Origin: a virus
Virus record (IMG/VR): IMGVR_UViG_3300036791_000045
Span: 1 to 29,503 of that record
DNA length: 29,503 nt
Strand: one strand, 5' to 3'
The notes below the pieces were generated by a model. It was not told the DNA's origin. It saw only the letters and a list, made by a program, of their open reading frames with translations, and made no database searches. Positions 2,225 to 24,554 of this stretch are shown here, one piece after another. The position numbers and the translations under genes are program-made. Numbering within the stretch: the stretch's first letter is position 1; each line of letters starts with the position of its first letter.

Positions 2225-2820
2225 CGCACATCCTTGAGCAAAGCGGCAGCACAGAACGTCGCACTGCGACAGGTATAGGAAAGCACATCAACTGCGGTTG
2301 CGGAGCCAGTGGTCAGTGATGGCACCGTGCCGCCTGAGAACTTGAAAACCGAATTGAAAACCGTTGTGAACGATCCCGCGCCGGATTGGATGAATGTGAT
2401 CGTACCGGACTTGCCCGCAGTGACATTCGCCACGTTCATCGTGGCGATGTTCGCCGTCAACGTCACCGCAGTGTTGATGAAGGTCGAAAAATCGAATGTC
2501 GTGGTCGCACCGAACGTGGTGGTTGTCTCGGTCGGATAGATCACGCTTGGCGGAATGATCGTGTTGGGAGATACACCAGCCAAATATTGCGCAGCTGATG
2601 CAAATCCTGGAACCACGCCGCCGGACTGGAATGTCGGATCAGATGTTCCACCATTCGAAGTCAGTACCTGTCCTGCCGTGCCAGGTGGGATTGCACCCCA
2701 TCCAGTGAAGCCAACGCCAAGACCTGTCGGAATGTTATGGGCCGGAACCGAGCCGCTAGTTTGTGCCAGCGCTGAAGTTGACAGCAACGCAGCGAAGCAT
2801 AAAGCGAGAAGATGTTTCAT
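2221..2820 (-). CDS. Tail fibre-like protein with N-terminal signal peptide
   Basis: This protein has 199 residues. I place the start at the ATG at 2820, which overlaps the upstream stop as ATGA and directly precedes a classical signal peptide: MKHLL, a hydrophobic core, and an ALA cleavage site before residue 20 (QTSG). A longer reading frame to 2886 exists but would bury the signal peptide inside another gene. The middle carries GTAGQVLTSNGG, a motif common in phage tail fibre shafts. The C-terminal half (SGTITFIQSGAG, KFSGGTVPSLTTG, VDVLSYTCRSATFCAAALLKDVR-type ending) resembles the beta-strand ends of phage fibre proteins. Export of such a protein is hard to reconcile with simple virion assembly. 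It may be a membrane-anchored or secreted version of a fibre domain. The role is inferred. Confidence 0.75.
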   Translation of the reverse strand: MKHLLALCFAALLSTSALAQTSGSVPAHNIPTGLGVGFTGWGAIPPGTAGQVLTSNGGTSDPTFQSGGVVPGFASAAQYLAGVSPNTIIPPSVIYPTETTTTFGATTTFDFSTFINTAVTLTANIATMNVANVTAGKSGTITFIQSGAGSFTTVFNSVFKFSGGTVPSLTTGSATAVDVLSYTCRSATFCAAALLKDVR

Positions 2821-3710
2821 AGCGCATACCCTGTGCCTGCGATTGGCTGCAGCGTTAGAGCCGCATAATTTCCAGCGATGACCCAATTCACTTGCCCCAT
2901 AATCGTGTCAGGTGATGTCGGTGTAAGAGTGATGTTATAGGCAGCGGCATTGCCCTTCCAGTCTATGATGGTAACTGGACCAGTTTTACTGGATGCTAAT
3001 GGCAGGGTTACAGCCGTAGTTTCGTTCAATGACTTGTTGATTGCAATGGTCCGATCATTGTTGGCAACAGTCACAGGACCGGTAGCAACTACAGTACGCG
3101 CTACACCATCGACATATTGCTTTGTCGCCGTGCCTAATGCAGCAGTAGGATCAGCTGCTTGAATCAACGGTCCGACCATTGTATCACCGGCTTTTTGAAT
3201 GAATGTATTTGTAGCCGGTACAGGGCTGGCAGGCACCCATTGCGAACTATCAGGATCGGTATAGTACAAGTACAAATTGCCGTCGGAACTGTTCCACCAT
3301 AAGGCACCTTGGACTGTAGTAGTCGGGGCCGTGTCTTGAACGTAGACGCTAGCGCCACCGCCCAATCCCGGAGAACCCTGCGGCCCCTTAATGTTGCCAT
3401 CCTTGACCCATGCGCCGCCAGTCAATTGCCAAATATCACCACTGGCACTGTCAAGATAAAGATCACCGTTTATCGAACCACTGATCGCACCGGGAGCACC
3501 GCTGCCAGTAAACCAAACCGCACCACGCTGGCCCGGAGGCCCCACTGGACCGACATTGCCGGTTGGACCAGAAGGCCCTTGCGGTCCGGGCGGTCCTTGT
3601 GGCCCCATCGGACCTTGTGGTGAAACTGTTAATTGAACTGGCGATGATGGATCCATCGTCAATTGAATACGTGGCTCATTATCGCCAAGTTCAAACTCTG
3701 GACCGCTCAT
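2817..3710 (-). CDS. Collagen-like phage tail fibre protein
   Basis: This protein has 297 residues. A short N-terminal segment is followed by a Gly-X-Y collagen stretch at about residues 31-64 ([14 protein letters not shown] and similar). Next come globular repeats with [14 protein letters not shown] and [16 protein letters not shown], the kind of small WxxDGxLY modules found in fibre proteins. A typical fibre segment GDTMVGPL...TKQYVDG follows at about residues 175-203. The C-terminal 80 residues are predicted to be beta-rich. It starts as ATGA on the stop of the upstream gene. Probable role: a trimeric fibre whose collagen helix holds the strands together, taking part in receptor binding. 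The receptor is unknown. Confidence 0.8.
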
Positions 3711-7798: not shown

Positions 7799-8284
7799 TT
7801 ATTCACTCCAGAGAACTTGAAACTGCAAGGCAATATCTTTCTTGTTACCGCGATACATAATGACATCGACGTAGATACGATCCAGACTTGCTCGCCAAGC
7901 GTAGACATCAAACGACGTACAGACGCGCTGATCCACAAATGGCTGCAATGCCTGCTGGGTATACTGTTGCGCTCGCAACACCGTACTGCCTTCAGAAGAT
8001 GGTGTATCCAGGATTTTGGCACGCTCAAGAAGCCAGTTCTTGCAGCCTATCGGCCAGCCGTTCCAGATTTCCTGTGCCTGATAATCGCCCCACCATCCAC
8101 GCAGGTCGGTACTATCGGGATCCGGCAATATATCCGTATTCAACACTAAAGCATCCGTCCCCAAAGCCACGCTAACAGCGGTCGCCAGCTCGTTGCTTTC
8201 ATCCAGTGTGCCGTCGCTCAGCAACAGCCAATCCATAAAACAACCTTCAAGATTGACAACGGATATAAGCCGGATATCGGTCAT
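7799..8284 (-). CDS. Mu gp46-like baseplate protein (phage GP46 family)
   Basis: This protein has 161 residues. The motif DSTDLRGWWGD at about residues 57-67 is the signature of the Mu GP46 family. It is followed by the usual helix GCKNWLLERAK and a C-terminal beta strand (LDRIYVDVIMYRG...IALQFQVLW). The family is related to T4 gp25, the wedge component that nucleates sheath assembly. The gene starts as ATGA on the stop of the gpN C-terminal part and is followed by gp47, as in Mu. Confidence 0.93.
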   Translation of the reverse strand: MTDIRLISVVNLEGCFMDWLLLSDGTLDESNELATAVSVALGTDALVLNTDILPDPDSTDLRGWWGDYQAQEIWNGWPIGCKNWLLERAKILDTPSSEGSTVLRAQQYTQQALQPFVDQRVCTSFDVYAWRASLDRIYVDVIMYRGNKKDIALQFQVLWSE

Positions 8285-8955
8285 GCGCTATATCCCATTA
8301 TCGACCGTGGCATGAACACCGGATTGACCACTTGATTGCCGACAATTAATTCATCACTGCGAGTAGTATCCTGATAAATAAGATTGGCGAGATACAAGCT
8401 GGGAAGACTTGCTTGATAATCGAACAGCACAACGCGCGGCAAAACCAAAGCTGTCTGGTTTAAATGACTGATGATACTGCCAGCCAAATAAGTTAATGTT
8501 TGATATGTGGCACTATCCATATTCGTAGCAGCTTGATCGCGAGCAGCATCGAATGCCGTCTTCATGACTTGCATCATAATTTCTACATCGTTCTGACTTT
8601 TAAAAGCTATTTGCGTAATCAAAATACATTCCGTGGTTAGGCAATCAATGATCGCTGTTTCCACTACAAGAATACTGATCAGACCAACAGGATTTTCAGC
8701 CATGATCTGCTGGCGCACGGCTGCCACCATCTGGGTCGTGACACCCAAGGTTCGTATGGTCGCAAAGATATTCAATAGCTCAGTACCAAATGTTTGATCG
8801 TTGAGATAGACGAGCCCGTTGGCTCGCATATCACCAATCTGCTGACGCAATAATGCTGCCTGATCAGTCTTGGCAGCAATCGCCATACCGCTGATGTAAT
8901 CGCAGATATTATTTATCAGCGTAATTAGTTCCAGCTTTTCCGAACTAATCGACAT
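8281..8955 (-). CDS. gpN (DNA circularisation/tail) C-terminal half, separate gene
   Basis: This protein has 224 residues from ATG at 8955. A GTG three bases upstream is an alternative start, giving 225. The first 190 residues are helical with no strong motif. The C-terminus, YQDTTRSDELIVGNQVVNPVFMPRSI, resembles the end of Mu gpN-type proteins, where a small domain recognising N.QV.NP.F.PRG closes the chain. It lies immediately after a protein that carries only the N-terminal gpN domain. Together the two proteins (219 and 224 residues) approach the length of one gpN. I infer that the ancestral gene was split. The function would be in the tail or baseplate hub. Confidence 0.7.
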   Translation of the reverse strand: MSISSEKLELITLINNICDYISGMAIAAKTDQAALLRQQIGDMRANGLVYLNDQTFGTELLNIFATIRTLGVTTQMVAAVRQQIMAENPVGLISILVVETAIIDCLTTECILITQIAFKSQNDVEIMMQVMKTAFDAARDQAATNMDSATYQTLTYLAGSIISHLNQTALVLPRVVLFDYQASLPSLYLANLIYQDTTRSDELIVGNQVVNPVFMPRSIMGYSA

Positions 8956-8958
8956 CAC

Positions 8959-9618
8959 TTACCTGTTACGCGATTGTGGTAATGGTGGCAATACTGGCGG
9001 CAACACTGGCCCCGGCGGTCCCAATGGCGGCGGCGGCGGGATCGGACCCGTCGGCGGAGGCGGCGGCCTAAGCGCAGGTGCTGCATTCGCCCAGACGCTT
9101 TCAGTTGGCGCCATATTCATCATATTAGTTATCGCGCTATCCACATTGGCAACCTGGCTCAGCACTTGAGCAATAGTGTTAACGAATGCCAGACTATTAC
9201 CGGGAGTGCCCGACTCCACAAATTGCATTTCAAATTCCGTAAAGCCGCCGCGCGTGCGGTTCTCAACCATGGTATATCGCTCGCACATGGCCTGCACACC
9301 GCCGGGAGCAAGCACTGGATGAACCAGCGTGCCAACGTCGTCGGATTCCAACGCACTGTAAAGCGCATAACGCTGGCTCGTATAGACGTACATTGGATTG
9401 CTCGGCCGATAGATCAGATAACCTTGAAAATTCCACCGCCGCGCCTGCCGCCCCATGTCCTCGGCATAAGGATCGTTGCGTTTTGGATATTCGTGAACGA
9501 CGGTACGGCGCCCACTCAATCTCGATCCAGTTTCAACGTGAAAGATGATGCCTCGAAACGAGGCCGGCTGCATCAATATGTCGCGCCATGGATTTGAGAA
9601 GTCCGAAATCTGGCTCAT
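8959..9618 (-). CDS. gpN-like protein, DNA circularisation N-terminal domain
   Basis: This protein has 219 residues. Residues 10-70 carry the conserved start of the DNA_circ_N family (Mu gpN): NPWRDILMQPASFRG, then FHVETGSRLSGRR, HEYPKRNDPYAEDMGR. FEMQFVESG near residue 130 is also typical. The last 37 residues are a proline-rich tail with runs of five prolines, after which the protein stops. The rest of a normal gpN is encoded by the next gene. In Mu, gpN precedes gpP; here it follows gp45, so it is both split and moved. gpN is a tail component despite the historical family name. The start overlaps the gp45 stop as ATGA. Confidence 0.85.
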   Translation of the reverse strand: MSQISDFSNPWRDILMQPASFRGIIFHVETGSRLSGRRTVVHEYPKRNDPYAEDMGRQARRWNFQGYLIYRPSNPMYVYTSQRYALYSALESDDVGTLVHPVLAPGGVQAMCERYTMVENRTRGGFTEFEMQFVESGTPGNSLAFVNTIAQVLSQVANVDSAITNMMNMAPTESVWANAAPALRPPPPPTGPIPPPPPLGPPGPVLPPVLPPLPQSRNR

Positions 9619-10635: not shown

Positions 10636-11697
10636 TCACTGCTGCAATTGCGGGATCAATCCTCCCAGCGCGTTCGGATTAACCAATTCAAGAACCGTCA
10701 GCGTACCCTCATTGCTGTCCTGCGTAAACGTCGCCGACTTCAATGTTAGATCCATATCCATAATCAACATCGGGCTTGTGACGTGAACCTGCTGGTTGCG
10801 CTGCCACAACCCACCGCTAGGACGCAGCCATCCGTACACTGTGCCAAACACCGTAATTTGATCTTCCGATAACCAGTTCTTTTCGGTTTGCGCCCGTCCC
10901 TGCAAATGCTGTTGGTCGCTGGTCGGCAATTCTGAAGGAATGACAAACGGCATAAAGCCAGCTCCAAGCTGCACTAGATCCATATTCATAAAAGGAATAT
11001 GAGAAACCTTGGCGCCCCATGTCTTGTCATCGCCGGTCTGCTGCGCCATTGCCGGCACACCGCTGGCCATACTCGGATTGTAGATAATTTCCCTGCCGAC
11101 AAGAATGTTCTGACCTTCGATCAACGTATCGCTGCCCTGACCGGGACCGGCTATGGCAACGAAGCTACCTTGTGGATCGCTAGTGAAACTGGCACCAACA
11201 TTGCGAGCATACATATCCAGATGATCGAACGTACTCATTCCATGAATTAGTGATACTCGCGGAAACTTGATTTGCGATAATTGACCGCCTTCAACCTTGA
11301 AAGGAATGCCATAACGTTGCAGCAAACTTCTTGCGATCTGTTCAAAATTTACGTTCTTCTGCTCCATGGTTTTGCTAATAGGACTGGACTGAGTAAGTTC
11401 CTGATTGGTCGCTCCCTGAATCTCGATATAATGCCGTCGCTTGTCGTAATAGACTTGCCGGGTAGATACGGTGCCGGTGAAAGCCGGCTGTCCGGCCAGA
11501 GTAATTGTGCATTTGTTACCCGGCTTGATCTGCAACACGCCGAAATTCTTCGCTATCGGCTGCCCTTCAGAACACGTAAAACGAAAACGATATGGCGGCA
11601 CTTCGCGAATAGCGTGACGAACCATCACTGATTCCCAATCGCGATAGTCCTGTCCCTCGATTGTGAGAACACATTGCTCGGTTGCCTTTCCAACCAT
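10636..11697 (-). CDS. Baseplate hub protein, Mu gpP (gp44)-like
   Basis: This protein has 353 residues from ATG at 11697, which shares TAATG with the second tape measure stop. A GTG start 15 bases upstream would give 358 but overlaps that gene. The sequence has the layout of gpP/gpD/T4 gp27 hub proteins: VLTIEGQDYRDWESVMVRHAIREVPPYRF at the start, a beta barrel (AGQPAFTGTVSTRQVYYD, YIEIQGAT), then the LysM-like-containing central domain with SLLQRYGIPF, and a C-terminal barrel. The trimeric hub holds the gp45 spike, which is the next gene. Confidence 0.88.
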   Translation of the reverse strand: MVGKATEQCVLTIEGQDYRDWESVMVRHAIREVPPYRFRFTCSEGQPIAKNFGVLQIKPGNKCTITLAGQPAFTGTVSTRQVYYDKRRHYIEIQGATNQELTQSSPISKTMEQKNVNFEQIARSLLQRYGIPFKVEGGQLSQIKFPRVSLIHGMSTFDHLDMYARNVGASFTSDPQGSFVAIAGPGQGSDTLIEGQNILVGREIIYNPSMASGVPAMAQQTGDDKTWGAKVSHIPFMNMDLVQLGAGFMPFVIPSELPTSDQQHLQGRAQTEKNWLSEDQITVFGTVYGWLRPSGGLWQRNQQVHVTSPMLIMDMDLTLKSATFTQDSNEGTLTVLELVNPNALGGLIPQLQQ

Positions 11698-13766
11698 TAC
11701 TGAAAATACCACCTGTCTTTAAAATTGCTACTCTCGGAACCGGATTTTGGTGACTGCGGCGGTCGTTCATTTTGCAAATTCTTAAACACGTCACCGCCTT
11801 CCTTGCTTTCCTCGGTCCGCTTCTTGGTATCACCGAAATCAACTGTCACCGAAGCCGTACCTTTATCGCTTTTGGCTTTAGCCGCTTCCGCATCTATCTT
11901 CTCACGTGCTATCGCTGCACTTGTTTTCTTGAACCAATCGGATTCTTTCGCAACTGTGCCAGGACCGTGTATGTCGGGACGTATGTCTTTTCTCGTATAC
12001 TGGTCTCGAATGCCTTTAATGGCCTCGGCTGTGACCGTACTGGTCTGCGCAGCATTCGCTGCGACACCAGCTGAAGCATTCTGCGTACCAAGACCTGATA
12101 TGTTGGAACCAGCGGCTGCTCGCTCGATGTCCTCGAACGTTGCGGCTTTCAAAGTCGGGTCTCTAGCTAATTGCGCCGCAGAAGCTGGGCCAGTACCTCC
12201 GGGACGATTTGGTGCGTAATAGACATTCGGCCCGGAAGCGAGACCTTCAATCGAAGTTGCCATCTGCTCCGGAGGGATGCCATGGGAAATCATTCGATTT
12301 AAAAAAGTCTCTGCCGTACCTTGTCGCCCTTGTCGTGAAGGTTCTTCAGACACCAGCATGGCTGCCAGCTTTTCCTTTACTTCCGGGTGCTCGTTGAGAT
12401 ATTTCAAATAGGGAGCCCGTTGCTCGGCCAACGAGCCAAATTGCCGCGACTCTATCGCTGCCGTATCGCCGCCTCTGGTACCCGGACGGAAGCCGCCGCG
12501 GGTTGCCTGCATTGGTCCGGCTACATCTCCCTCGCTGGCTGCTCGCCCACCTCTGGCTATCCCGCCACCGCGAATGCCGACACCGCCGCCGCCAGCACCT
12601 CCCTGCTCGATCTTTTGCAATGAGTCCCGAATGTCACTGAGCAATTTCTTGTTTTCTTCTTCGAGGCGCATTCGTTCTGTTGCATTTAAATCCAGTGATG
12701 ACTTGCCTTCAAATTCCTTGAATGACTCCCCTAGTCGCCTGCCAGCTGCCTCGCCCTCATGCTTCTCCTTAATATCAGGTCGCCATAACTCGACAGCCCA
12801 ATCTGCCCAAACTTTGATCTGCTTTAACAGTTCCCAAAATGCTTGCACGTCTGCTATATCCTGCTGGAGCTTTTTGTCGAACGTATCGAAGCCTTCGATA
12901 AAGAATTTGCTGATGGCGTGTTCGTCCTGTTCTGCACCTACGTCTCTTAATCGGTCAAACCATTTGTTGACAGCATCGAGAGCGTGTTCCCCGAATATTT
13001 TCCATTCGTTGTCCATCTTCTCGCGAAAATCCGCCATGTGATCTTCGAAATCTTTCGCGACCTGCTCATTGATTTGATAGACATCCTTGACCTTGCCCAT
13101 GTACTGATCGAGATTTGCAAAAACCGATTGCGGCATCTGAAACATTTGCGCAATATAATATTGCATCTCCGGCGTCTGCTTTTTAAACAGCTCAGTAACG
13201 ATTTTCATCTGTTTAAAAACATCGGTCTCATTCATTAATTTTCTGGCAGCTTCCACACCTCCCGGAGCTTTTTCAAGTTGCTTGAATATCTCGGACCCTT
13301 CACGCATTGTCCGAAGTTCCTGCAACTTGCCAGCCATGCCGCCGATATATCCAGTAGCAGTCTTGAAGTCGATGCCCATGCGCATCATAGCACTGCGTAG
13401 TCGGTCGATATTCTCAGCTGTTATTCGTGTGTCCTGCGAGAACATCGCCAGCTGAACGCGCGTCATCGCCAGCTCTTGCAGCGACTCCGTTAGCTTGGTC
13501 ACGGCTTCATAGGTACCGCCAACACCAAGAATGCTTTTGCCAGACTCGGCAATTTTGCTAAAGAGATTTTGTACATCCGTAAAAGCAGCCTTAGAAGCTG
13601 CCATCAGATTAGCCGTCGATTTGCTTACTCGATCTATCTCATCAGCTGTCCCTTTTGCCGACTCTTTGGCAGCCTTGTTCAACTCGCGCAGCTCAGTCGC
13701 AATGGCTCGCAATCCTGGAGTTATGCTATCTCGTAACGCAAGCTCGAGCTCATCCTGTCGGGCCAT
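11697..13766 (-). CDS. Second tape measure protein paralog, with possible murein hydrolase domain
   Basis: This protein has 689 residues. The N-terminal 380 residues are helical and parallel the preceding tape measure protein: FEIALRD/LELALRD at the start, VQL.MFS.DTR near 104-113, NEWKIFGEHAL near 253-263, KLLSDIRD near 374. Residues 390-440 are a Gly/Arg-rich linker. Residues 451-525 form a different domain, with LNEHPEVKEKLAAMLVSEEPSRQG, AETFLNRMISHG and VYYAPNRPGG. The Glu-rich strand followed by ET.LNR resembles SleB-type or muramidase-like cell wall hydrolases, an inference only. The C-terminal 150 residues are low complexity. Tape measure proteins set tail length and may be injected into the periplasm. 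The stop is TAA, shared with the gpP start. Confidence 0.8.
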   Translation of the reverse strand: MARQDELELALRDSITPGLRAIATELRELNKAAKESAKGTADEIDRVSKSTANLMAASKAAFTDVQNLFSKIAESGKSILGVGGTYEAVTKLTESLQELAMTRVQLAMFSQDTRITAENIDRLRSAMMRMGIDFKTATGYIGGMAGKLQELRTMREGSEIFKQLEKAPGGVEAARKLMNETDVFKQMKIVTELFKKQTPEMQYYIAQMFQMPQSVFANLDQYMGKVKDVYQINEQVAKDFEDHMADFREKMDNEWKIFGEHALDAVNKWFDRLRDVGAEQDEHAISKFFIEGFDTFDKKLQQDIADVQAFWELLKQIKVWADWAVELWRPDIKEKHEGEAAGRRLGESFKEFEGKSSLDLNATERMRLEEENKKLLSDIRDSLQKIEQGGAGGGGVGIRGGGIARGGRAASEGDVAGPMQATRGGFRPGTRGGDTAAIESRQFGSLAEQRAPYLKYLNEHPEVKEKLAAMLVSEEPSRQGRQGTAETFLNRMISHGIPPEQMATSIEGLASGPNVYYAPNRPGGTGPASAAQLARDPTLKAATFEDIERAAAGSNISGLGTQNASAGVAANAAQTSTVTAEAIKGIRDQYTRKDIRPDIHGPGTVAKESDWFKKTSAAIAREKIDAEAAKAKSDKGTASVTVDFGDTKKRTEESKEGGDVFKNLQNERPPQSPKSGSESSNFKDRWYFQ

Positions 13767-13767
13767 T

Positions 13768-15864
13768 TTACTTTGTTAGATCCTCTTCCAAGGCTTTACT
13801 ATGACTGACTTCTACATGGGTAAACATGCCATCTGCCTCGGCATTGGTCTTGGTACCTGATGGCACATTATTAAAATTGAATTTGATAGATGCACCTTTG
13901 TTTTTCTTAATAGCCTCGCTCATGTCCAATGTATTTCTCGCGGATTCGAGCTCGCTATCAGAAGTCGCCGTCTTTTTTTCGGCTGCGGTCGCTGCCCTGG
14001 CAGCTGCGGCCATGGCAGCAATATCAGTTTTGGGAATTCGATCAAACGCAGCCGGATCCAAATCAGGATGCACAGCAGGTCTCGCTGTACTTGTGGGATC
14101 TCTCGCATGAGCCGGAAGAAGTTCTACAGTGGAACCCCGCGGCGTAATCGAAGCCATTCCGTCGCGACCAACATGCAGAGTAAGACCTTCTGGATGTTTC
14201 GCATTCTCTTCCAATAACTGTTGCTTGAACTTTGGCCATTCTGATGCGGCTATGGAAAAGCAGCCCAACGTATATAGCCGGTCAAGATTATCGCTGAATG
14301 CACGGTGTATCTGCACTCCGGCCCAACGATGACCACCGCCAGTGAATGTCCCGGATGGACCGCCAAGCGTCGCTACCGAACCGATACGCTGACCGATCGG
14401 ACCAATATCACCTTTGCCAATATTGATTGGATAATCGCCATATGGAATCGCTCCAGCGCCCTGTCCGCCACTGCCGTAATGATAAGTTTTGCCACCTAGT
14501 TCTACGGTGCCTTTCAAATAATACGGATGACCAGATTGCTCGGCAATTTTGGTTTCACCCCCGGAAGGCGAAGGCTGCGGCGGCAACTCACCTTTGCCAT
14601 CATTGCTTGTTGTGTCAGTCGTACTGACATCACCGCGCTGCGCACCTGGCCCGACGCCGGGACGATACACCGGCGCTGCCTCGGCCGAACCAACCAGCGC
14701 ATTGCCTATCGCACTGGCACCGGCAGCCAAACCCAACTCCATACGCTTTAATACATCACGTATGTCATTGAGCAGTTTATTGTCTTCTTTCTGCAATCGC
14801 TTTCGCTGCTCTTCCAGTGCACCGAAATCCTCGTCCCATCTGTTACCACTTCTTTTGCCACGCAATACATTGCGAACGGCATCGCCCAGAGCCTTGTTGA
14901 CAGCTTTTGGCTGCAACTTCTCTTGAAGCGTTTGATAGAGATGAAGCAACGCCTGAGCGTCTTTATAATCTTGCTGCAATATTTTATCTATGCCGTCGAA
15001 AAAATGGATTCCCCATTCACCCAGATGAATTTCACCAAGCTTATCCAGCTCCTCAAAAAACTGATTGAATCGACTCAATGCATGTTCGCCAAATATGTTC
15101 CACTCGTTTTCCAACCGCTCAGTCAGATCGTGCTGATGATTTTTAAAGTCTATAAAAACCTGCGGGTTAACCTTGGGTGATTCTTTTGCCCTGTCCATCG
15201 CCGCCAGCCATTCATTAAGAACTGACGGAGGAATTTTAAGCGCCTGCGACAAATAAAATTGCTGATCGGCTCCCTGCTTTTTAAAGACTTCCAGAATGCG
15301 ACGGATCGCTTTCATATAATCTTGTTCTTTTATCAATTCATAAGCAAGACCGGCCCCACCCATCTTTTCCAATGTCTGGAACAAAGAACTGCTCTCTTTT
15401 AGAGCCTTGAGTTCCTGTAATTGGGTTGATAAGCCGGCAATGGTCTGTTTTGACATATCGGCCGTTTGACCAAGACGCTCCAAACCACGTTGCATCTTTT
15501 CAATGTCTTCCACGGACAACCGCGTATCCTTGGAAAACATCTGCAACTGAACTCGTTGCTCTCCTAGAGTAACCAGCGCAGTTGAAACCTGCTTGAGTGT
15601 CTCCACACTGCCTAGTGTGCCGACAATACCCTTGCCCATGCCAACAAGGAAACTGCCCATGCCGGCAATCTCCTTAACCGTCTGCCGTGCGGTACCGGCA
15701 AACAGCTGTGAGCCGCGATTAAGCCGATCCAAACTTTGGGTGCCGGGCGTCGCATCCTTGGCGACTACCTCGTTCATCTCCTTCAGCTGGCGCGAGATTG
15801 CCTTGAGGCTAGGCGAAACAGCATCGCGAAGGGCTATCTCAAATGTTGTTTTCTCGTCAGGCAT
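13768..15864 (-). CDS. Tape measure protein with L,D-transpeptidase-like domain
   Basis: This protein has 698 residues. It directly follows the tail assembly chaperone frameshift gene, which is the fixed place of the tape measure in contractile and flexible tails. Residues 1-385 are helical with coiled-coil segments and a hydrophobic stretch at about 66-90. Residues 385-445 are a Gly/Pro/Ser linker. Residues 447-566 form a beta-rich domain with AIPYGDYPINIGKG, then H520 in VQIHRAF and C535 in YTLGCFSIA. This order (P.G.Y strand, catalytic His, Gly-Cys) is that of YkuD/DUF2778-like L,D-transpeptidase folds. If active, it would act on peptidoglycan during DNA entry. The gene starts eight bases inside the chaperone extension. 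Confidence 0.85.
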   Translation of the reverse strand: MPDEKTTFEIALRDAVSPSLKAISRQLKEMNEVVAKDATPGTQSLDRLNRGSQLFAGTARQTVKEIAGMGSFLVGMGKGIVGTLGSVETLKQVSTALVTLGEQRVQLQMFSKDTRLSVEDIEKMQRGLERLGQTADMSKQTIAGLSTQLQELKALKESSSLFQTLEKMGGAGLAYELIKEQDYMKAIRRILEVFKKQGADQQFYLSQALKIPPSVLNEWLAAMDRAKESPKVNPQVFIDFKNHQHDLTERLENEWNIFGEHALSRFNQFFEELDKLGEIHLGEWGIHFFDGIDKILQQDYKDAQALLHLYQTLQEKLQPKAVNKALGDAVRNVLRGKRSGNRWDEDFGALEEQRKRLQKEDNKLLNDIRDVLKRMELGLAAGASAIGNALVGSAEAAPVYRPGVGPGAQRGDVSTTDTTSNDGKGELPPQPSPSGGETKIAEQSGHPYYLKGTVELGGKTYHYGSGGQGAGAIPYGDYPINIGKGDIGPIGQRIGSVATLGGPSGTFTGGGHRWAGVQIHRAFSDNLDRLYTLGCFSIAASEWPKFKQQLLEENAKHPEGLTLHVGRDGMASITPRGSTVELLPAHARDPTSTARPAVHPDLDPAAFDRIPKTDIAAMAAAARAATAAEKKTATSDSELESARNTLDMSEAIKKNKGASIKFNFNNVPSGTKTNAEADGMFTHVEVSHSKALEEDLTK

Positions 15865-16045
15865 CTTCTTCCGGAGGTCGCTGCCGTTCCATCAAAATAC
15901 TGGTCCATTTCATGTGTTTGGCGACTTCTGAAATGGGCTTATTCAAAAATACATCCGGATCCACAGAGAACTTCTGGGCCAAGCGATAACAGTCCAGAAT
16001 ATATTCTTCTACAGGTCCGGAAGAAAAAAACCCGCCAGCTGCCAT
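15857..16045 (-). CDS. Tail assembly chaperone extension (T part, made by -1 frameshift)
   Basis: This frame extends the gp41-like chaperone after a -1 slip at 16024-16030. It adds 55 residues (SSGPVEEYILDCYRLAQKFSVDP...PPEEDA) to the first 99 residues of the upstream protein, giving a fusion of 154 residues. An ATG at 16045 lies inside the frame but has no clear ribosome site, so I treat this as an extension rather than a free gene. The arrangement matches the G/GT proteins of lambda and E/E' of P2, which load the tube protein onto the tape measure. The stop lies inside the start of the tape measure gene. Confidence 0.8.
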   Translation of the reverse strand: MAAGGFFSSGPVEEYILDCYRLAQKFSVDPDVFLNKPISEVAKHMKWTSILMERQRPPEEDA

Positions 16046-16320
16046 GCCGCTGTATTCCAATCTTTCGGATGGAGCTGGCGGATAGTTGAGGGAGGCACAG
16101 TCGCCAATGTCGCCATCATTTGCGTCATCGACTTAGCATCGAAATTGATTTTCGGTGGCTCGGCTGCCATATCCAGAATAACGGGATTGCCGCATCGCTC
16201 GATGTCACCTGCTGTCGGTTCCCTGAAAATCAATTCCATGGTTTCCTCTCCGTTTGCGATGACGGACTTTCGCAAAGCGAGAGTTATCTTCGGTTGTTCT
16301 TTGCCATTTAATTCTGCCAT
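16009..16320 (-). CDS. Tail assembly chaperone, Mu gp41-like
   Basis: This protein has 103 residues. The central motif LIFREPTAGDIERCG and the C-terminal LHPKDWNTAAWQLAGFF fit the Mu gp41 tail assembly family (Phage_TAC type). It lies directly between the tube protein and the tape measure, as expected. The reading frame ends shortly after a run of seven T residues that supports the -1 frameshift. The protein is not expected in the virion; it coats the tape measure while the tube polymerises. Confidence 0.88.
   Translation of the reverse strand: MAELNGKEQPKITLALRKSVIANGEETMELIFREPTAGDIERCGNPVILDMAAEPPKINFDAKSMTQMMATLATVPPSTIRQLHPKDWNTAAWQLAGFFLPDL
16024..16030 (-). promoter_or_regulatory. Programmed -1 frameshift slippery site (T TTT TTT)
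   Basis: On the minus strand the zero frame reads GCG GGT TTT TTT CTT. The heptamer T TTT TTT allows both tRNAs to slip back one base. After the slip the frame reads TCT TCC GGA and continues for 55 codons to the tape measure start. Downstream there are only weak pairing options, such as TTCTTC with GAAGAA and the palindrome AGAATATATTCT. Confidence 0.8.
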
Positions 16321-16321
16321 A

Positions 16322-16681
16322 TTACATCTCGTCGCAGCTCACGCCTTCAAATCGGATACGTGTCTGACCTTCTCGGGTATTGAGCTCGAAAGCAGAACGG
16401 CACCACGCCTCACGAAGAACATAAACCTTCCCGTTGGCAAGCTCCGCTGTAACCGTCGAATTGGTAACGGTTTCAACAACAGTCATTGAAAGTTCAGGCA
16501 CAAGCGAAACGTCGCCCTCGATAAAGGGAACTCGAGGCATTTCGCTAAAGCCATGGACATAGTCCTGACCGGCGAGACCTGCGCGTTCCAGCGACGAGGG
16601 ACTAACGGTGAAATTTCCTCGCAGCGGATAGATGGCTCCATCCACCTTGAGGAAAGCAGTACCAGCTATTCTTTGACCCAT
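16322..16681 (-). CDS. Tail tube protein, Mu gpM-like
   Basis: This protein has 119 residues with a strong AGGAGG ribosome site six bases before ATG at 16681. The sequence has the pattern of the Mu M tube family: GTAFLKVDGAIYPLRGNFTVSPSSLERAGLAGQDYVHGFSEMP, then a set of beta strands ending VYVLREAWC...TRIRFEGVSCDEM. It forms the inner hexameric tube under the contractile sheath. It follows the sheath gene by 13 bases, and the strong ribosome site suits a protein needed in many copies. Confidence 0.93.
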   Translation of the reverse strand: MGQRIAGTAFLKVDGAIYPLRGNFTVSPSSLERAGLAGQDYVHGFSEMPRVPFIEGDVSLVPELSMTVVETVTNSTVTAELANGKVYVLREAWCRSAFELNTREGQTRIRFEGVSCDEM

Positions 16682-16694
16682 CTATGCCTCCTGT

Positions 16695-18251
16695 TTAAGC
16701 TGCTGTGCCAATCAATGCACTCGGATTAACGGCCGCCGTCTGGTCCACGCCACGATTATATTGCAGTCTGAACTGAGCCAAGACCGCAAACAGGCGCAGG
16801 CCATTGATAAGATCAGGCGGATAGAGCACATTGACTCGCGTCGGATCAGTGCTGTCCCGCTCAACAATAAGATTGGCGATGAAGTCCAATGCGTTCTCTA
16901 CCAGACCATTGAACTCGTCAATACGATATTGCGCCACCAGTTCTGCCTTGATCGAGCTTGGCGTAACGATGGCTTGGCCGGCGCCAAATCGTGTACCGTC
17001 ATCAGCTAGCTTGTGCCGCGGCCATTTGCTCGTAACGGCCTGTCGCTGGTTACGAAGCAATTGAGCCAGCGTCGCCAGCGTCGTCGCATCCGTATAAGCA
17101 TCATCTGAATAGCCATACAGATTGAGTTGATACATGGTCGTTTCACGAGCGATCATTGGCACATTGTCGCTCTCGGTCCGTTGCGTCGCCATACCAGTAA
17201 GCGATAGTGAATTGAGCTCGCTCATAATAAAGCGATTGTGCAAACTAGCCGGAAGAATTCCATCAAGATGCAGTGACTGTAGCGGACGCGCGGGATCATT
17301 GGTGTATCCGCGAGCGGCTTTGCCAGCATAAGCCGCAGCAACTTGATAAATAGTGGAAGGCAGCAGCGGTTCCACCGCCATCACCGATACCTGCGGGCTA
17401 TTACGCGACGCTCCGAAGGTTAGAGCAGCACTATACGTTCCGCGATAGGCACTCCAGATGCTACCGAATTTCTGCCGCATCCAGCCCCAGCGACCACTAT
17501 CGCTGAAACCAAATTCGGTTTCCCATGCCAGCAACGAGGTGCTGTCGGTAAATGGCAAGCAAACATACTCGGCAGCCATTTCACCGAGATTGCTGATGGC
17601 ATTGGTAAAGGTTGGAATGCCGGCACCGCCGGTTAACTGCGGACCTGAATAGGTTAGCGTCAATCCGATTGGCAGCATCTCACCGCCCGGGCCACTGTAA
17701 TAAGAATCCATCAGCGTAATATCGTTTCCAGATGCTCCCTTCCAGTTACAGGTCAGGGTAACGGCACCAGCCGCAGCCACGGCATGGACCGGAAGATCCG
17801 GAAGGGCAGCAATAGCCGCAGTTATATTAGTCGCCACCGTGGCCACTGTATCGCCGGCGCCGCACACAATAGGAACATGCATGCCACCGATATAAAGATC
17901 AATCTGACCGGCCTGGGTCGGCGGCGTTGCAACCGTAATTGTTCCGGTTGCTGCCGTGGCACCCACAGCCTCGGCAACCGGAAGCGCCCATGTCTGCTGA
18001 CTTGCATTGACGGCAAAGAATGCCTTGCATATTGCTGCCAGATGGCTGCCTTTGCCGAATAGACTATCGGCAACGGAACCCGATTGTACGGCAACAGGAG
18101 TATCAGCTGGGGCGCTTCCAGTTGATAGCTTGATGCCGACAAGCAACGCCGGCTGTGCGTAGATCGGCAAGCCGGCCATAGATGGGTCGATCTCGACCCA
18201 ATACAAAGGCTGCCGCCAATTCGAGGGAATATTTGAAAATGATACAGGCAT
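16695..18251 (-). CDS. Contractile tail sheath protein, Mu gpL-like
   Basis: This protein has 518 residues, close to Mu gpL. The start is supported by AGGAGACAAAG before ATG at 18251. The N-terminus FSNIPSNWRQPLYWVEIDPSMAG is typical of the family. A central domain (GRWGWMRQKFGSIWSAYRGT) follows, and the C-terminal block LYGYSDDAYTDATTLATLAQLLRNQRQAVTSKWPRHKLADDG is the most conserved part of Mu-like sheaths. The protein polymerises around the tube and contracts on infection. It shows that the phage is a myovirus. Confidence 0.96.
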   Translation of the reverse strand: MPVSFSNIPSNWRQPLYWVEIDPSMAGLPIYAQPALLVGIKLSTGSAPADTPVAVQSGSVADSLFGKGSHLAAICKAFFAVNASQQTWALPVAEAVGATAATGTITVATPPTQAGQIDLYIGGMHVPIVCGAGDTVATVATNITAAIAALPDLPVHAVAAAGAVTLTCNWKGASGNDITLMDSYYSGPGGEMLPIGLTLTYSGPQLTGGAGIPTFTNAISNLGEMAAEYVCLPFTDSTSLLAWETEFGFSDSGRWGWMRQKFGSIWSAYRGTYSAALTFGASRNSPQVSVMAVEPLLPSTIYQVAAAYAGKAARGYTNDPARPLQSLHLDGILPASLHNRFIMSELNSLSLTGMATQRTESDNVPMIARETTMYQLNLYGYSDDAYTDATTLATLAQLLRNQRQAVTSKWPRHKLADDGTRFGAGQAIVTPSSIKAELVAQYRIDEFNGLVENALDFIANLIVERDSTDPTRVNVLYPPDLINGLRLFAVLAQFRLQYNRGVDQTAAVNPSALIGTAA

Positions 18252-19565: not shown

Positions 19566-19838
19566 TTATTTCTCCCGGAATATATCGTAGAAGTGATCAG
19601 ACGTACTCTTGTCGATCAATTCGGCTGCCCGATTGGGATCTTTAACGATGGCAAATCTTTTGGTCCCGGATTTGCGCCGGCGAATTTTCGAGAACCTGAT
19701 CTTGCGACCTTTGCGTTGGCGTTCGTGCCGTTTCTTTACTTTCTTGAGCACCTCAGCGGCAAAATCGGCACCACGATTGTCCATGGTGTCAGCCCATTGC
19801 ATAATCTCGCCAGTGTCGATCGTAAGAAGATCTACCAT
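19566..19838 (-). CDS. Small very basic protein of the neck region
   Basis: This protein has 90 residues from ATG at 19838, which overlaps the TAG of the second capsid gene. A GTG at 19880 would give 104 residues but has no better ribosome site. Residues 30-57 are densely positively charged (KKVKKRHERQRKGRKIRFSK). This could bind DNA or the acidic inner face of a connector. Its place suggests an HK97 gp10-like or minor head-completion protein, but the sequence gives no family signature that I can see. Confidence 0.6.
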   Translation of the reverse strand: MVDLLTIDTGEIMQWADTMDNRGADFAAEVLKKVKKRHERQRKGRKIRFSKIRRRKSGTKRFAIVKDPNRAAELIDKSTSDHFYDIFREK

Positions 19839-20899
19839 GCCACTGCATTCATAAATGACACATGCGGTGCCCGCATACACCAGTCACACCATAGCGTCAT
19901 CTTCAATGCAATGGCATCAATCTGGAACATACTCTTGCTAGGCCATGCCGGAGTGCCGGGCGATGACCCGCCGATGATATCTGCCGGCGTTGTATCCTCT
20001 TGATGGATGGTCGCAATGGTGCCGACTTCAAATTCCGGTGCGCCAATCGTACTGGCAAAGCTCGATGGTTCGATAGCCATAACGGTCTTGTCCGGTAATG
20101 CCGCGCTGGCGGCCACTGGCATGTCCCTGCTTGGGTCAATGGCAAACTGCCCGCCGGCATAAAAACGAATGGCTATGGATTGCGACGGACTGGCAATAAA
20201 CATCGCATGAGCTCCGCCATTGCGCGTAGCTATATCCCCAACAAGCAAACCGAGATCGCGCCCGCAGGCATCAAATCCCGTAGCCGTTGAAGGCGTAAGA
20301 GGTGTCAGACCGTTAAGCAATCCCGCTGATTTTTGTGGTGATGAAGCTGCATTGGAAAGAATAGCGGCATCAACCGCCGGACCGGAAGCCTCGATAATCA
20401 ATGCGCGCAAGATCGTCTCGATATTGGATGCCTCGCTCATTTCTTGCGAGAATGTCGTAATAACCGACAGCTTGCGTGGACGCAATGTTGGTCCAAGCAA
20501 AGTATATTGCCTTGCCGGAATAACTCCGCCTTCCGTAACCCACTGACCGGCACCGGCCGGCGTCGTCGAGCGACCTGGCACGACCACGCTAGCAAACGTA
20601 CCGAGATCAATGTGCAAGCCCCCTGAAAGCATCAACCTGCCGAGAGCTGACATGGAAACGCTTTCCTGTACGGCATCGGATACACTAAGTGCCGCCAACG
20701 GCCCAGCCCAGCTTGCGTCCGTTAACTTTGCCGGAGCAGTAGCGCCACGTAGAATGATTGGCGTTACCGGATCATCTGGATAAAACTCACTGATGATCTG
20801 TTCGACGGGTCTTTTTTGTACAAAGCTACGAACCTTGGCGGCTGCGGCTCGCCATACATATTGCGAAGCCGGAATAACCCTGTTACGATCTTCTTTCAT
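19832..20899 (-). CDS. Second HK97-type major capsid protein, stand-alone
   Basis: This protein has 355 residues. It aligns with the C-terminal half of the 773-residue capsid fusion: QWVTEGGVIPARQ against SFVGEGLPIPVRQ, LRPRKLSVITTFSQEM against LTPKKMAVITTWTREM, and the end TPADIIGGSSPGTPAWPSKSM against NPADIVGGASSPGTPAWPTKSM. It has no protease domain and only a short N-terminal arm. It lies between the gp6-type connector and the neck genes, an unexpected place for a major capsid gene. It could be a minor or vertex capsid protein, a replacement copy, or a second shell component. An AGAGGA ribosome site precedes ATG at 20899. Confidence 0.88.
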   Translation of the reverse strand: MKEDRNRVIPASQYVWRAAAAKVRSFVQKRPVEQIISEFYPDDPVTPIILRGATAPAKLTDASWAGPLAALSVSDAVQESVSMSALGRLMLSGGLHIDLGTFASVVVPGRSTTPAGAGQWVTEGGVIPARQYTLLGPTLRPRKLSVITTFSQEMSEASNIETILRALIIEASGPAVDAAILSNAASSPQKSAGLLNGLTPLTPSTATGFDACGRDLGLLVGDIATRNGGAHAMFIASPSQSIAIRFYAGGQFAIDPSRDMPVAASAALPDKTVMAIEPSSFASTIGAPEFEVGTIATIHQEDTTPADIIGGSSPGTPAWPSKSMFQIDAIALKMTLWCDWCMRAPHVSFMNAVAW

Positions 20900-20911: not shown

Positions 20912-21604
20912 TCATACCCAGAACCGGATATATTTATCCAGAATGCCTTGCACCTGCTTCCACGTATCCGGCAAACCAATAGCACTGCCGAGCAAGTTGG
21001 GAGCATAATAACCGACTCTCGCTTCCTTGTGTGATAGCTGCCGAACGCCGATCAGGGATGGATTGCGTATCCACATGGCATAGCTTTCCCGAGTAATTGC
21101 CTTCATGGCAAACTTCAAAGGACCGGGAGCATTGTCAGGCAACAAATAACCGCCGCTGTATTGAACATCAATTACGCCAATCCAAGGTCCCGTCGTCGGA
21201 AACGAATACAGGGTGCCGGTCTCCGATTCCAGCATCCACGTCTGCCCCTCACTGGCCAGCAGATCGTTACCATCCTGCGTTAGTGATTTGATATCAGACA
21301 GCTGTACCGGCCAGCGAGACAAATATAATCGCTGTGTGGTCGGACGAAACGGCATAACGGAATTATCAGCCCATGCATTGTATTCATCTTCCAGCTGATA
21401 AAACGTTTCGTCTACTTCCTCCAAACCAAACACCCGATTACACATCTTGGCGATGGTTTCCGAAATATTGGTAATCAGATCTGTAACCAATTCATCTTTG
21501 CTGGTATCAGTAGGCAGGATCATCAATGCATTTTTCATCTCGGCCAATGTCACCAAGTCATTGGAAGCAGCTGGCGTAATTACGTTGAGAATTTGCTGCA
21601 TCAT
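20912..21604 (-). CDS. Head-tail connector protein, HK97 gp6-like
   Basis: This protein has 230 residues. The N-terminal helices ([43 protein letters not shown]), followed by the strand [10 protein letters not shown] and the closing helix [17 protein letters not shown], match the gp6-like connector family that docks to the portal. It begins as ATGATG on the stop of the collagen-like gene. The length is somewhat greater than HK97 gp6, mainly through the middle strands. Confidence 0.85.
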
Positions 21605-22839
21605 CTGCCTCGCAACTGTCGCATGGCATCATATTGGTCGAATGCCGGGGAAAGCGAGAATGACGGCCCCATGGTGCCATCGCTCATCACCGCCTTCAGA
21701 GTAAGACCGTCAAACTTGACGCCAATCCAGTGCGGAGCCGGCTTGCCGGAATCACCCTTTGGTCCCTTCTCGCCGGACAAACCTTTCTCGCCTCGCTTGC
21801 CTACCGGACCCGATTGCCAATCTGGTCCCGGTACGGCTCCAGGATTTTCAACCTTGGCAATGAACCAGCCATGGTCGAGCGTCACGATATCCAGAGCATG
21901 GTATGTTTCTTCGGCTGAATACGTACCGCGAATTTTAAACGATGTTCCCGGTAAACCTGCCGCTGCTATCAACCGCCAATCAGCTGTGCCCGGTTGTTTG
22001 GCCGTGTCGCACTTGGCTTGCCAGCAACTTCCTTCATAAGTAACCAGCTCCCCTTCATAGAAAATGCGATCCGACCATGGCACGACTGGACCTAACATGC
22101 CACGCGGACCGCATTCTCCACGGGCGCCGGGCGCTCCTGCATCGCCCTTCTCGCCACGCTCGCCGCGCTCGCCTTGCGCACCAGCAGGACCGACAATTCC
22201 TAAATCACCTTGATCGCCACGCTCGCCTCTCTCGCCCTTCTCACCACGTTCGCCAGCCGGTCCCATAGGTCCGACCGTTTCCAAGCCTCTCTCGCCTTTC
22301 TCGCCACGCTCGCCCTTCTCGCCTTGAGGACCCGGAAGTCCGGGTGCGCCGGTTTCACCCTTCTCGCCCTGCGGACCCAAAATCCCGGATACTCCTTTTT
22401 CGCCAGCATCACCTTTGGCTCCGGGTTCACCGGGTTCTCCACGCTCGCCGGCATCGCCTCGGGGGCCGGGCTCGCCTTTTTCACCACAAGGTCCTTGCGG
22501 GCCGGGCTCACCTTTTTCGCCGGGCTCACCTTTTTCACCGGCATCGCCCTTCTCGCCTTTCTCGCCATGTAAGCCTCGCTCTCCCTGAAGTCCACGCTCG
22601 CCCGGCTGTCCGTCCTTTAATTCAAGCAAACGTAAGACAATGTCCTTCTCCAGCGTCGCCAAGATCGCTTCGCCTCGCGCCTTGGCAACCTCGAGATCAC
22701 GCAACCATTCTTGACGCAGCTGCGCAATAACGGCAGCACCGGCATCAAGAAGTGCGTCTGAGAAGTTTTCGTTGTCCATATTCAATCTGTCTGGATCGGT
22801 TGAGCATGATTCTGGTAAAGGCATCTCGCTGTGCTTCAT
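21601..22839 (-). CDS. Collagen-like protein with carbohydrate-binding-like modules, within head genes
   Basis: This protein has 412 residues if started at ATG 22839, which has GGAGG seven bases upstream. That start lies 95 bases inside the portal gene. ATG at 22779 (392 residues) is an alternative. After a helical N-terminus comes a collagen-like Gly-X-Y stretch of about 175 residues (residues about 77-252), dense in GEKGE and GERGE. It is followed by [16 protein letters not shown] and [16 protein letters not shown], a pattern like the CBM5/12 and chitin-binding modules of fibre proteins. A second similar module ([16 protein letters not shown]) comes next, then a short second collagen stretch. 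It lies between portal and connector, so it may be a head fibre or decoration. This is inferred from the domains and the neighbours. Confidence 0.82.
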
Positions 22840-24163
22840 TGTTAGCCTCCGGCTTCGCTGGTGCCGCTGGCTGTGGCGAAGCAGCTGCTGGCGCTGCAGG
22901 TATGCTCGCTGCTGCACTTAACGGAACAACCTGCTGCTGCACCCTTGGCTCGTCACCAAACTCGACATCCGGCAAGTCCTCGGAATTACGTGCCTCATTG
23001 GGCGACATAATGCCGCCTTGCGTTGCACGAGCCAATCCTTCAATGCGATCCTTAAAATCGGATCGTAACAATGCCTTGGTATCGAATTCAATATATTCAT
23101 CTGGCTGGCCCTTGAGCTCGAAAGTCTGACCGAAAGCTTCTTCGACATGGTTGAGACAAAAGCCGAGACCGCTGGCAACCCATTGCCGCATCATGGCTTC
23201 AGCTGAACCGACATGCCGGGTTTCCAGTCCAAGAATAGGCGGCGGTACCCGAAATGCCAAGGCGATGTCCTGATCGGATAGCTTAAGAACTTCTGCCAGC
23301 TGCGCGTCGCGGAATGGAATCATCGGCATCGCAACCGGCTTTATGCCATGCGTAAGAATTGGAGTGCCGCCAACATTAGCGCCAGTCGTCATTTCATTCC
23401 AGCGATCCCGCAACGCGCTGACCACGTCCTTGTCCAGATTTAGATCAGTTGCCAATACCGTTCCCGGCTTGGCTTGGTTCTGATAAAATGCTGCCTGCTG
23501 CGCCCTGATGGAAACGCCGGTCGCCACGTCCATGTAGGCGCTGACCAACGGGCTCTCGCCGCGCAATGGATTACGCAATTGATCACAATGCAATTTAATG
23601 TGCATGACGTCGCGGGCCGGTACCGTGGACAATGGACCATAACGGTTTTGCACGATCCAGTTGCCGCCTAGCGAATAATGAACCTCACCATCGCCGTCGA
23701 TTAAAGCTCGGCAGTAACGATTATCCATCAAATGAATCTCGTCGATCTCAAAACGCGCATTACGCAGGCAAAGAAAATACGCATTGCCTTCGACATATAG
23801 CTGGCGAACAGCATTCAGCATTATGTCAGAGATCGACTGATAATCATTTGGATAACGTAAAATCCTGGATAGCGCAGAAGTCGTAACTCGCTCGCGTCCG
23901 CCATTCGACAAGCCGCGCCAGTGATCGCCCGGACACATAGCCATGGTTTGACTATAGGCACTAACGCAGGCTTCGATGATTGCCAGCTTGGTGCCGACCA
24001 GCAACGGAGTATAACCATTCTGCCACCAGTTAATGGAATTGCCAACATCGGCCGGGAGCCAGCCATGCGTAACAGGGAGATAATATGGTCCCGGCCGATA
24101 CTCGCCCTCAGCCGCTTTCGCGACTGAGGTCAAGATTTGCGCTATGCGGGAACGCCAGCTCAT
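22745..24163 (-). CDS. Portal protein, HK97 family
   Basis: This protein has 472 residues. The family marks are [29 protein letters not shown]-type helix ([16 protein letters not shown]), [32 protein letters not shown], and [19 protein letters not shown] with [12 protein letters not shown]. The C-terminal tail is Ala/Pro-rich. The dodecamer forms the entry of DNA into the head. In most HK97-like phages the portal gene precedes protease and capsid; here it follows them. The start is ATGA on the stop of the small charged upstream gene. Confidence 0.95.
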
Positions 24164-24480: not shown

Positions 24481-24554
24481 GTCATCCACGAAGAAACCGG
24501 ACAACTGCTCTCAGCTATGCCAGCTAATGCCGGTCATCCACGAAGAAACCGGAC
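24481..24554. repeat. Direct repeat at the capsid 3' end (22-bp copies, 52 bp apart)
   Basis: A 22-base sequence at 24481-24502 is repeated exactly at 24533-24554. The second copy encodes the end of the capsid fusion (SSWMT region) and the first lies just past its stop. Flanking bases also match loosely. It looks like a small tandem duplication of the gene end. Confidence 0.8.

Follow-up and report, generated by a model that had tools for sequence, protein, structure and literature searches.

The tape measure of the archaeal virus HFTV1 is formed by six identical chains arranged in a threefold coiled bundle, and the C-termini of these chains alternate, three of them docking into the hub and three folding back onto the connector (PMC12494034). 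In diffocin, the tape is a homotrimer, and it is the hub protein that carries a transglycosylase and an endopeptidase (PMC10996793). The number of chains in a tape, and the match between a sixfold tube and a threefold hub, are unsettled, homotrimers and homohexamers having both been reported. Wall hydrolases fused to tape measures have been described for mt3 of TM4 (PMC1796659), for phiCbK, where the domain is of the CHAP type (PMC3556154), and for enterococcal tape measures (PMC10194240).

Wall hydrolases on tapes and needles with two enzymes are thus already known; for a tandem pair of paralogous tape measures, a search of open-access literature found no report. The literature matches that mention SuMu, phiCbK and Shady concern other matters. 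We describe such a pair here, in a viral window of 29,503 nucleotides (IMG/VR record IMGVR_UViG_3300036791_000045), and compare it with its relatives. The comparison leads us to propose, with moderate confidence, that the two proteins jointly constitute the tape measure of the tail, as a hetero-oligomer that carries two wall enzymes and derives from a duplicated single tape.

Two tandem tape measure genes in a Mu/SfV-like tail module

The minus strand of the window encodes a Mu/SfV-like head and contractile-tail module, with portal, capsid and protease genes. Homologues of sheath, tube, chaperone, hub, gp45, DNA_circ, GP46 and wedge occur together in it, which identifies the tail as Mu/SfV-like and contractile. 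The sheath gene (16695..18251; phrog_165, E 2.8e-156) stands at 39-45% to the best-matching known sheaths, among them those of the SfV group. It is followed by the genes for the tail tube protein (16322..16681; PF10618, E 1.5e-33) and for the tail assembly chaperone Phage_TAC_7 (16009..16320; PF10109, E 3.1e-10). The -1 frame of the chaperone runs on to about 15857, overlapping the start of the next gene, and this extension (...DCYRLA...ERQRPPEE..., window 15857-16320) is conserved in seven loci, in which it ends at the same gene start. It is likely a programmed frameshift of the G/GT type. A tape measure gene that starts at the end of the chaperone's -1 extension is the expected arrangement.

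Exactly two genes lie between chaperone and hub, and they occupy the same position in relatives. The upstream gene, A (13768..15864, minus strand), encodes 698 residues and the downstream gene, B (11697..13766, minus strand), encodes 689. The adjacent paralogous reading frames of the preliminary description were both found in place, as were the blocks ALRD, RVQLxMFSxDTR and NEWxIFGEHAL that it had listed as common to the two products. The homology of their N-terminal halves is clear: BLASTP aligned A and B with 34% identity over about 380 residues (228 bits, E 3e-69), as against 37 bits for the best locally shuffled version of B. Homology resumes in the last 55 residues or so, a stretch that the preliminary description had not included. 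Both N-terminal halves match phrog_2276, annotated as tail length tape measure protein (A, E 9.4e-6; B, E 2.9e-11), and this match, together with the position between chaperone and hub, places the two proteins in the tape measure family.

From the alignment, trees and lengths, the tape part of A was delimited to residues ~1-375 (14740..15864), a helical region which ends at the NKLLNDIRDVLK segment, and that of B to residues ~1-387 (12606..13766). The C-terminal tails were delimited from motif and profile comparisons. The tail of A, which we call alpha (FNFNNVPSGTKTNAEADG), covers residues ~640-698 (13771..13947), and the beta tail of B (VTVDFGD...RPPQSPKSG...DRWYFQ) covers residues ~632-689 (11700..11873).

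The genes are closely spaced. In the window, a gap of one base separates the stop codon of A and the start codon of B; in relatives including L003, L010 and L031, the two codons overlap (TAATG or TGATG). The Mu gpP/gp44-like hub (10636..11712, minus strand; PF21683/PF22255/PF21929) likely starts at the ATG at 11697, so that the stop of B overlaps the hub start (TAATG). From these junctions we infer that A and B are translationally coupled and synthesized in roughly even amounts.

Several other features of the module were recorded. The Mu gpN-like DNA circularisation protein is split into two adjacent genes (N part, 8959-9618; C part, 8281-8958), which sit after gp45 rather than before the hub. 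The split also occurs in relatives with pairs or with single tapes, and a link between the tape pair and the split was rejected, as single-tape phages such as L066 also have it. Two genes are capsid-like, a protease-capsid fusion of 773 residues (24511-26832) and a 355-residue protein (19832-20899) that matches the C-terminal half of phrog_617, the family to which the fusion also belongs. A collagen-like fibre gene (21601-22917) lies between the portal and head-tail adaptor genes, with similar genes at this place in L008 and L031, and the window ends with glycine-rich (PF21722) and collagen-like tail fibre genes (2-2224 and 2817-3710). In L031, which is on the same contig as L013, the hub gene (11096-13837) comes after a gap of about 960 bases behind B and has a 563-residue N-terminal extension with Laminin_G_3, also seen in L012.

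Relatives (loci L003-L113) were collected by profile scans of viral contigs with A/B, the hub and the tail tube; a single-sequence scan of these contigs with B gave no match, and profiles were required. Tape measures were counted as tape-measure-like genes between tube and hub, near copies were collapsed by hand, and the many fragmentary contigs were left out of the two classes. Two tape measures were found in about 30 distinct contigs, with both reading frames intact in the full-length cases, and a single tape directly followed by the hub was found in nine (L037, L054, L059, L061, L066, L070, L085, L086 and L090). The phages with paired tapes were found only in metagenomes: two hub queries retrieved no relative from 84,980 bacterial and archaeal species genomes, and tblastn retrieved no relative of A or B from 50,697 named phage records, in which the sole matches were to the enzyme domain of L028. 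Tandem paralogous tapes with different C-terminal domains, as originally described for this locus, are thus borne out, and the pair is kept across the roughly 30 related contigs.

Concerted tape parts and complementary tails

A tree built from 66 tape halves joins A with B from within a phage lineage in about ten separate places, mostly with good support, and single forms are interleaved among the pairs. Constraining all A, or all B, to a single clade was rejected for both the window's group and that of L010 (AU p 0.005 each). Sliding identity within the L010 group revealed a mosaic: over residues 41-290, the similarity between A and B is at least as high as that between orthologues, and the similarity between orthologues is highest in residues 1-40, residues 361-400 and the tail. 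This pattern fits gene conversion of the tape part, and repeated duplication is possible in some of the deeper lineages.

On average, the A and B tape parts are 19 residues apart in length (medians 371 and 392), and single tapes comparable in total size to the paired proteins have tape parts as long as theirs. The suggestion that two tapes might set two tail lengths is therefore disfavoured. The ruler, which had been taken as the whole protein of about 690 residues, is better predicted to be the helical part of about 370-390 residues. At 0.15 nm per helical residue, counted over the tape part alone, a tail of about 56-58 nm is estimated.

The tails behave differently from the tape parts. Both ends are readable in 19 pairs, and in every one of these a tail with the motif NxPxG is partnered by one with the motif RxPQxxxxG (PQ). 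Most single tapes have a composite tail, in which a strand-like NxPxG segment is followed by a segment of the TPQM/SPQA type, the motifs being weak in L037 and L066. Alpha and beta profiles built from eight phages were applied to the other 11 complete pairs, each of which was resolved into one alpha and one beta tail (by small margins in L051, L076 and L087), and both profiles gave more than 15 bits with seven of the nine single tails. The two tail types come in the opposite gene order in L101, L076 and L087.

Tails also cluster by type across lineages. The alpha type needs two changes on the tail tree, compared with a mean of 10.7 after shuffling, and none of 500 shuffles was as low; the tree was built from short sequences, and few of its branches are strongly supported. 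This clustering runs contrary to the tape trees, which on their own would call for about ten duplications, with single forms interleaved, and would thereby suit repeated independent tandem duplications of little functional meaning that left A and B redundant. As the domains also differ between the copies and the frames are intact in full-length cases, we regard redundancy as very improbable.

Another explanation is that each tail is built on either A or B, giving two alternative homo-oligomeric tapes and a mixture of particles with different wall enzymes. The near-equal tape lengths would yield similar tails with either protein, and the enzymes are exchangeable modules, as described below. However, given the complementary loss of motifs, a homo-oligomer of either protein would lack one of the two motifs of the single forms, and a clearly one-sided, beta-type tail is absent from the single tapes of the sample, making this explanation quite unlikely.

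Putative enzyme domains and their exchange among relatives

With regard to A, residues 446-573 (14146..14529, minus strand) form a putative L,D-transpeptidase-like (YkuD-like) domain with H520 and C535 as candidate catalytic residues. The AF2 model of this domain, built from two sequences, is of medium confidence (pLDDT 63.5). L,D-transpeptidases account for nearly all structures listed among its VIA-align matches (Z up to 6.8, rmsd 3.5, 92 aligned residues), with the related enzymes DpaA and Bd1075 also among the structural matches. Foldseek alone gave E 0.3, and no sequence match was found in Pfam or PDB. In L,D-transpeptidases, a GC motif comes 14-17 residues after the catalytic histidine; A has H520 and G534-C535 at a spacing of 15, invariant in four homologues. 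The L,D-transpeptidase-like domain that had been assigned to A is thus supported by the model matches and by the invariant H520/C535. The second histidine of the motif (SHGC) is not conserved, and the domain could hydrolyse rather than transfer.

The domain of B (residues 448-569; 12060..12425, minus strand), which we refer to as the G domain, is helical and has the conserved elements E, NR, SN and TDQG (E..NR..SN..TDQG). Homologues were found in most B proteins and in small single tapes. The AF2 model, based on eight sequences, is all-helical with a pLDDT of 72 (62-72 across the five models), and neither Foldseek nor VIA-align matched it to a PDB structure. PDB sequence searches with the A and B domains returned chance matches or none. 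The preliminary description had proposed a possible hydrolase in B: a conserved domain is indeed present, and matches of this domain to Pfam PF07486 (Hydrolase_2) or PDB were not found, the former being absent from the window and from 17 related records. The Glu...NR of B is nevertheless in register with Hydrolase_2 in a weak similarity detected by hhalign (P 0.008 with five plasmid-borne homologues, versus P 0.27 for the control); these homologues were retrieved with an approximate query sequence that served retrieval only. We regard the G domain as a putative glycan-cleaving enzyme, a reading based mainly on the domains that replace it in relatives, such as Phage_lysozyme2 in L003, together with the weak similarity to Hydrolase_2.

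Among members of the window's own group, tape part and tail stay conserved around a middle region that is swapped. The L,D-transpeptidase-like domain occurs in the upstream protein of the window and of L031. In L003, Amidase_2 upstream (E 4.7e-7) is paired with Phage_lysozyme2 downstream (E 4.2e-12); the upstream protein of L030 has a VanY-type domain (weak, E 0.006), and those of L010, L016 and L017 have domains that are M15-like by motif only. In the neighbouring group of L028, A carries a CHAP/TIGR02594 domain (E 3.9e-15) and the downstream protein a different domain, "NNPG". A CHAP-related family, whose profiles cross-match, was found in L093, L095, L106, L109, L110, L112 and L113, and the downstream protein of most other relatives has the G domain. 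In L101/L105, the upstream tape combines the G domain with the PQ tail and the downstream tape a CHAP-like domain with the NxPxG tail, so that in L101 the enzymes are reversed along with the tail types.

Fifteen of the 19 fully read pairs place an amide- or peptide-acting enzyme on the NxPxG protein and a glycan-type enzyme on the PQ protein, a count that is indicative, since the M15-like, SLT-like, NNPG and L051-pair labels come from motifs read by eye; the four pairs outside this pattern are L050, L073, L078 and L092. Both kinds of domain are also combined on one chain in four long single tapes, namely G and M15 in L054, SLT-like and CHAP in L059, G and L,D-transpeptidase-like in L061, and CHAP and SLT-like in L070.

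Five small single tapes (L037, L066, L085, L086 and L090) have the B-type G domain as their only domain, which indicates that one gene can suffice, and the upstream copies of L046, L092, L103 and L107 are without a recognised enzyme. Both observations would suit a tail in which one copy is the tape and the other a duplicate kept as a second enzyme carrier of the virion, low in copy number or located at its own site in the baseplate. Such a division of labour is unlikely in our view: both copies keep full-length, near-equal tape parts, the tape halves evolve in concert, and the complementary tails leave neither copy with the complete tail of the single forms. Paralogy, close tandem spacing, domain swaps, tail complementarity and discordant trees can all be read from the sequences themselves.

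A proposed two-component tape and comparison with known systems

Among the options put forward for this pair, the comparative evidence favours the hetero-oligomer and the delivery of two wall-acting enzymes, because the tails are complementary, the near-equal tape halves co-evolve and the enzymes are exchangeable modules. The model makes predictions about co-assembly, stoichiometry, tail contacts and enzyme activity. Inside the tube, the tape parts would mediate the assembly of A and B into a single hetero-oligomer, which would measure one tail length. The stoichiometry would most likely be three A to three B, arranged about the threefold axis of the hub, with each chain type providing one of the two kinds of C-terminal contact that the identical chains of the HFTV1 homohexamer divide among themselves. 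Split tails are what would be expected if two genes had taken over these two C-terminal roles. On contraction, the peptide- or amide-acting domain proposed for A and the glycan-acting domain proposed for B would be delivered to the peptidoglycan like the two blades of a pair of scissors. In its strictest form, which we advance tentatively, the model holds that the 3+3 heterohexamer is obligate, that duplication fixed two quasi-equivalent C-terminal states, and that the needle tip thereby presents cutters for glycan and for peptide, each in fixed position and number.

The pair would have arisen by duplication of an ancestral single tape with a composite tail, a different half of which survived in each copy. 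Gene conversion may later have homogenised the tape parts, or duplication may have recurred, and enzyme cassettes would have been swapped freely between tape and tail. Several observations count against the model. Concerted tapes could also arise by repeated duplication without co-assembly, four of 19 pairs depart from the enzyme pattern, the tail order is reversed in several lineages, and the tape of diffocin is a homotrimer (PMC10996793). If the two-component tape is correct, the assumption of a single tape would misjudge both the tail length and the enzyme load of such phages. The series from single tape, to single tape with two enzymes, to pair would illustrate how phages add wall-cutting activities at unchanged tail length, and a tape pair with split, complementary tails would make the question of chain number testable by genetics and cryo-EM.

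Among the closest known systems are Mu/SfV-like tapes (Mu gp42 position; PHROG 2276), which share the order of sheath, tube, chaperone with -1 extension and tape, and whose family, phrog_2276, is matched by both N-terminal halves; here, in contrast, two tandem paralogues each have their own C-terminal domain and half a tail. TM4 mt3, phiCbK and the enterococcal tapes likewise carry a wall-acting domain on the tape measure, with one tape per phage as described in those accounts, whereas different domains reside on two paralogues in the present phages. Diffocin also unites two wall enzymes in a contractile needle, but both are on one hub protein alongside a homotrimeric tape, rather than on two tape paralogues. 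The resemblance to HFTV1 concerns the proposed mode of working: of the six helical chains in the model, half would dock by their C-termini to the hub and half to the connector ring. HFTV1 achieves this with six copies of one protein that has no evident enzyme, whereas in the present phages each state would be fixed by a gene of its own.
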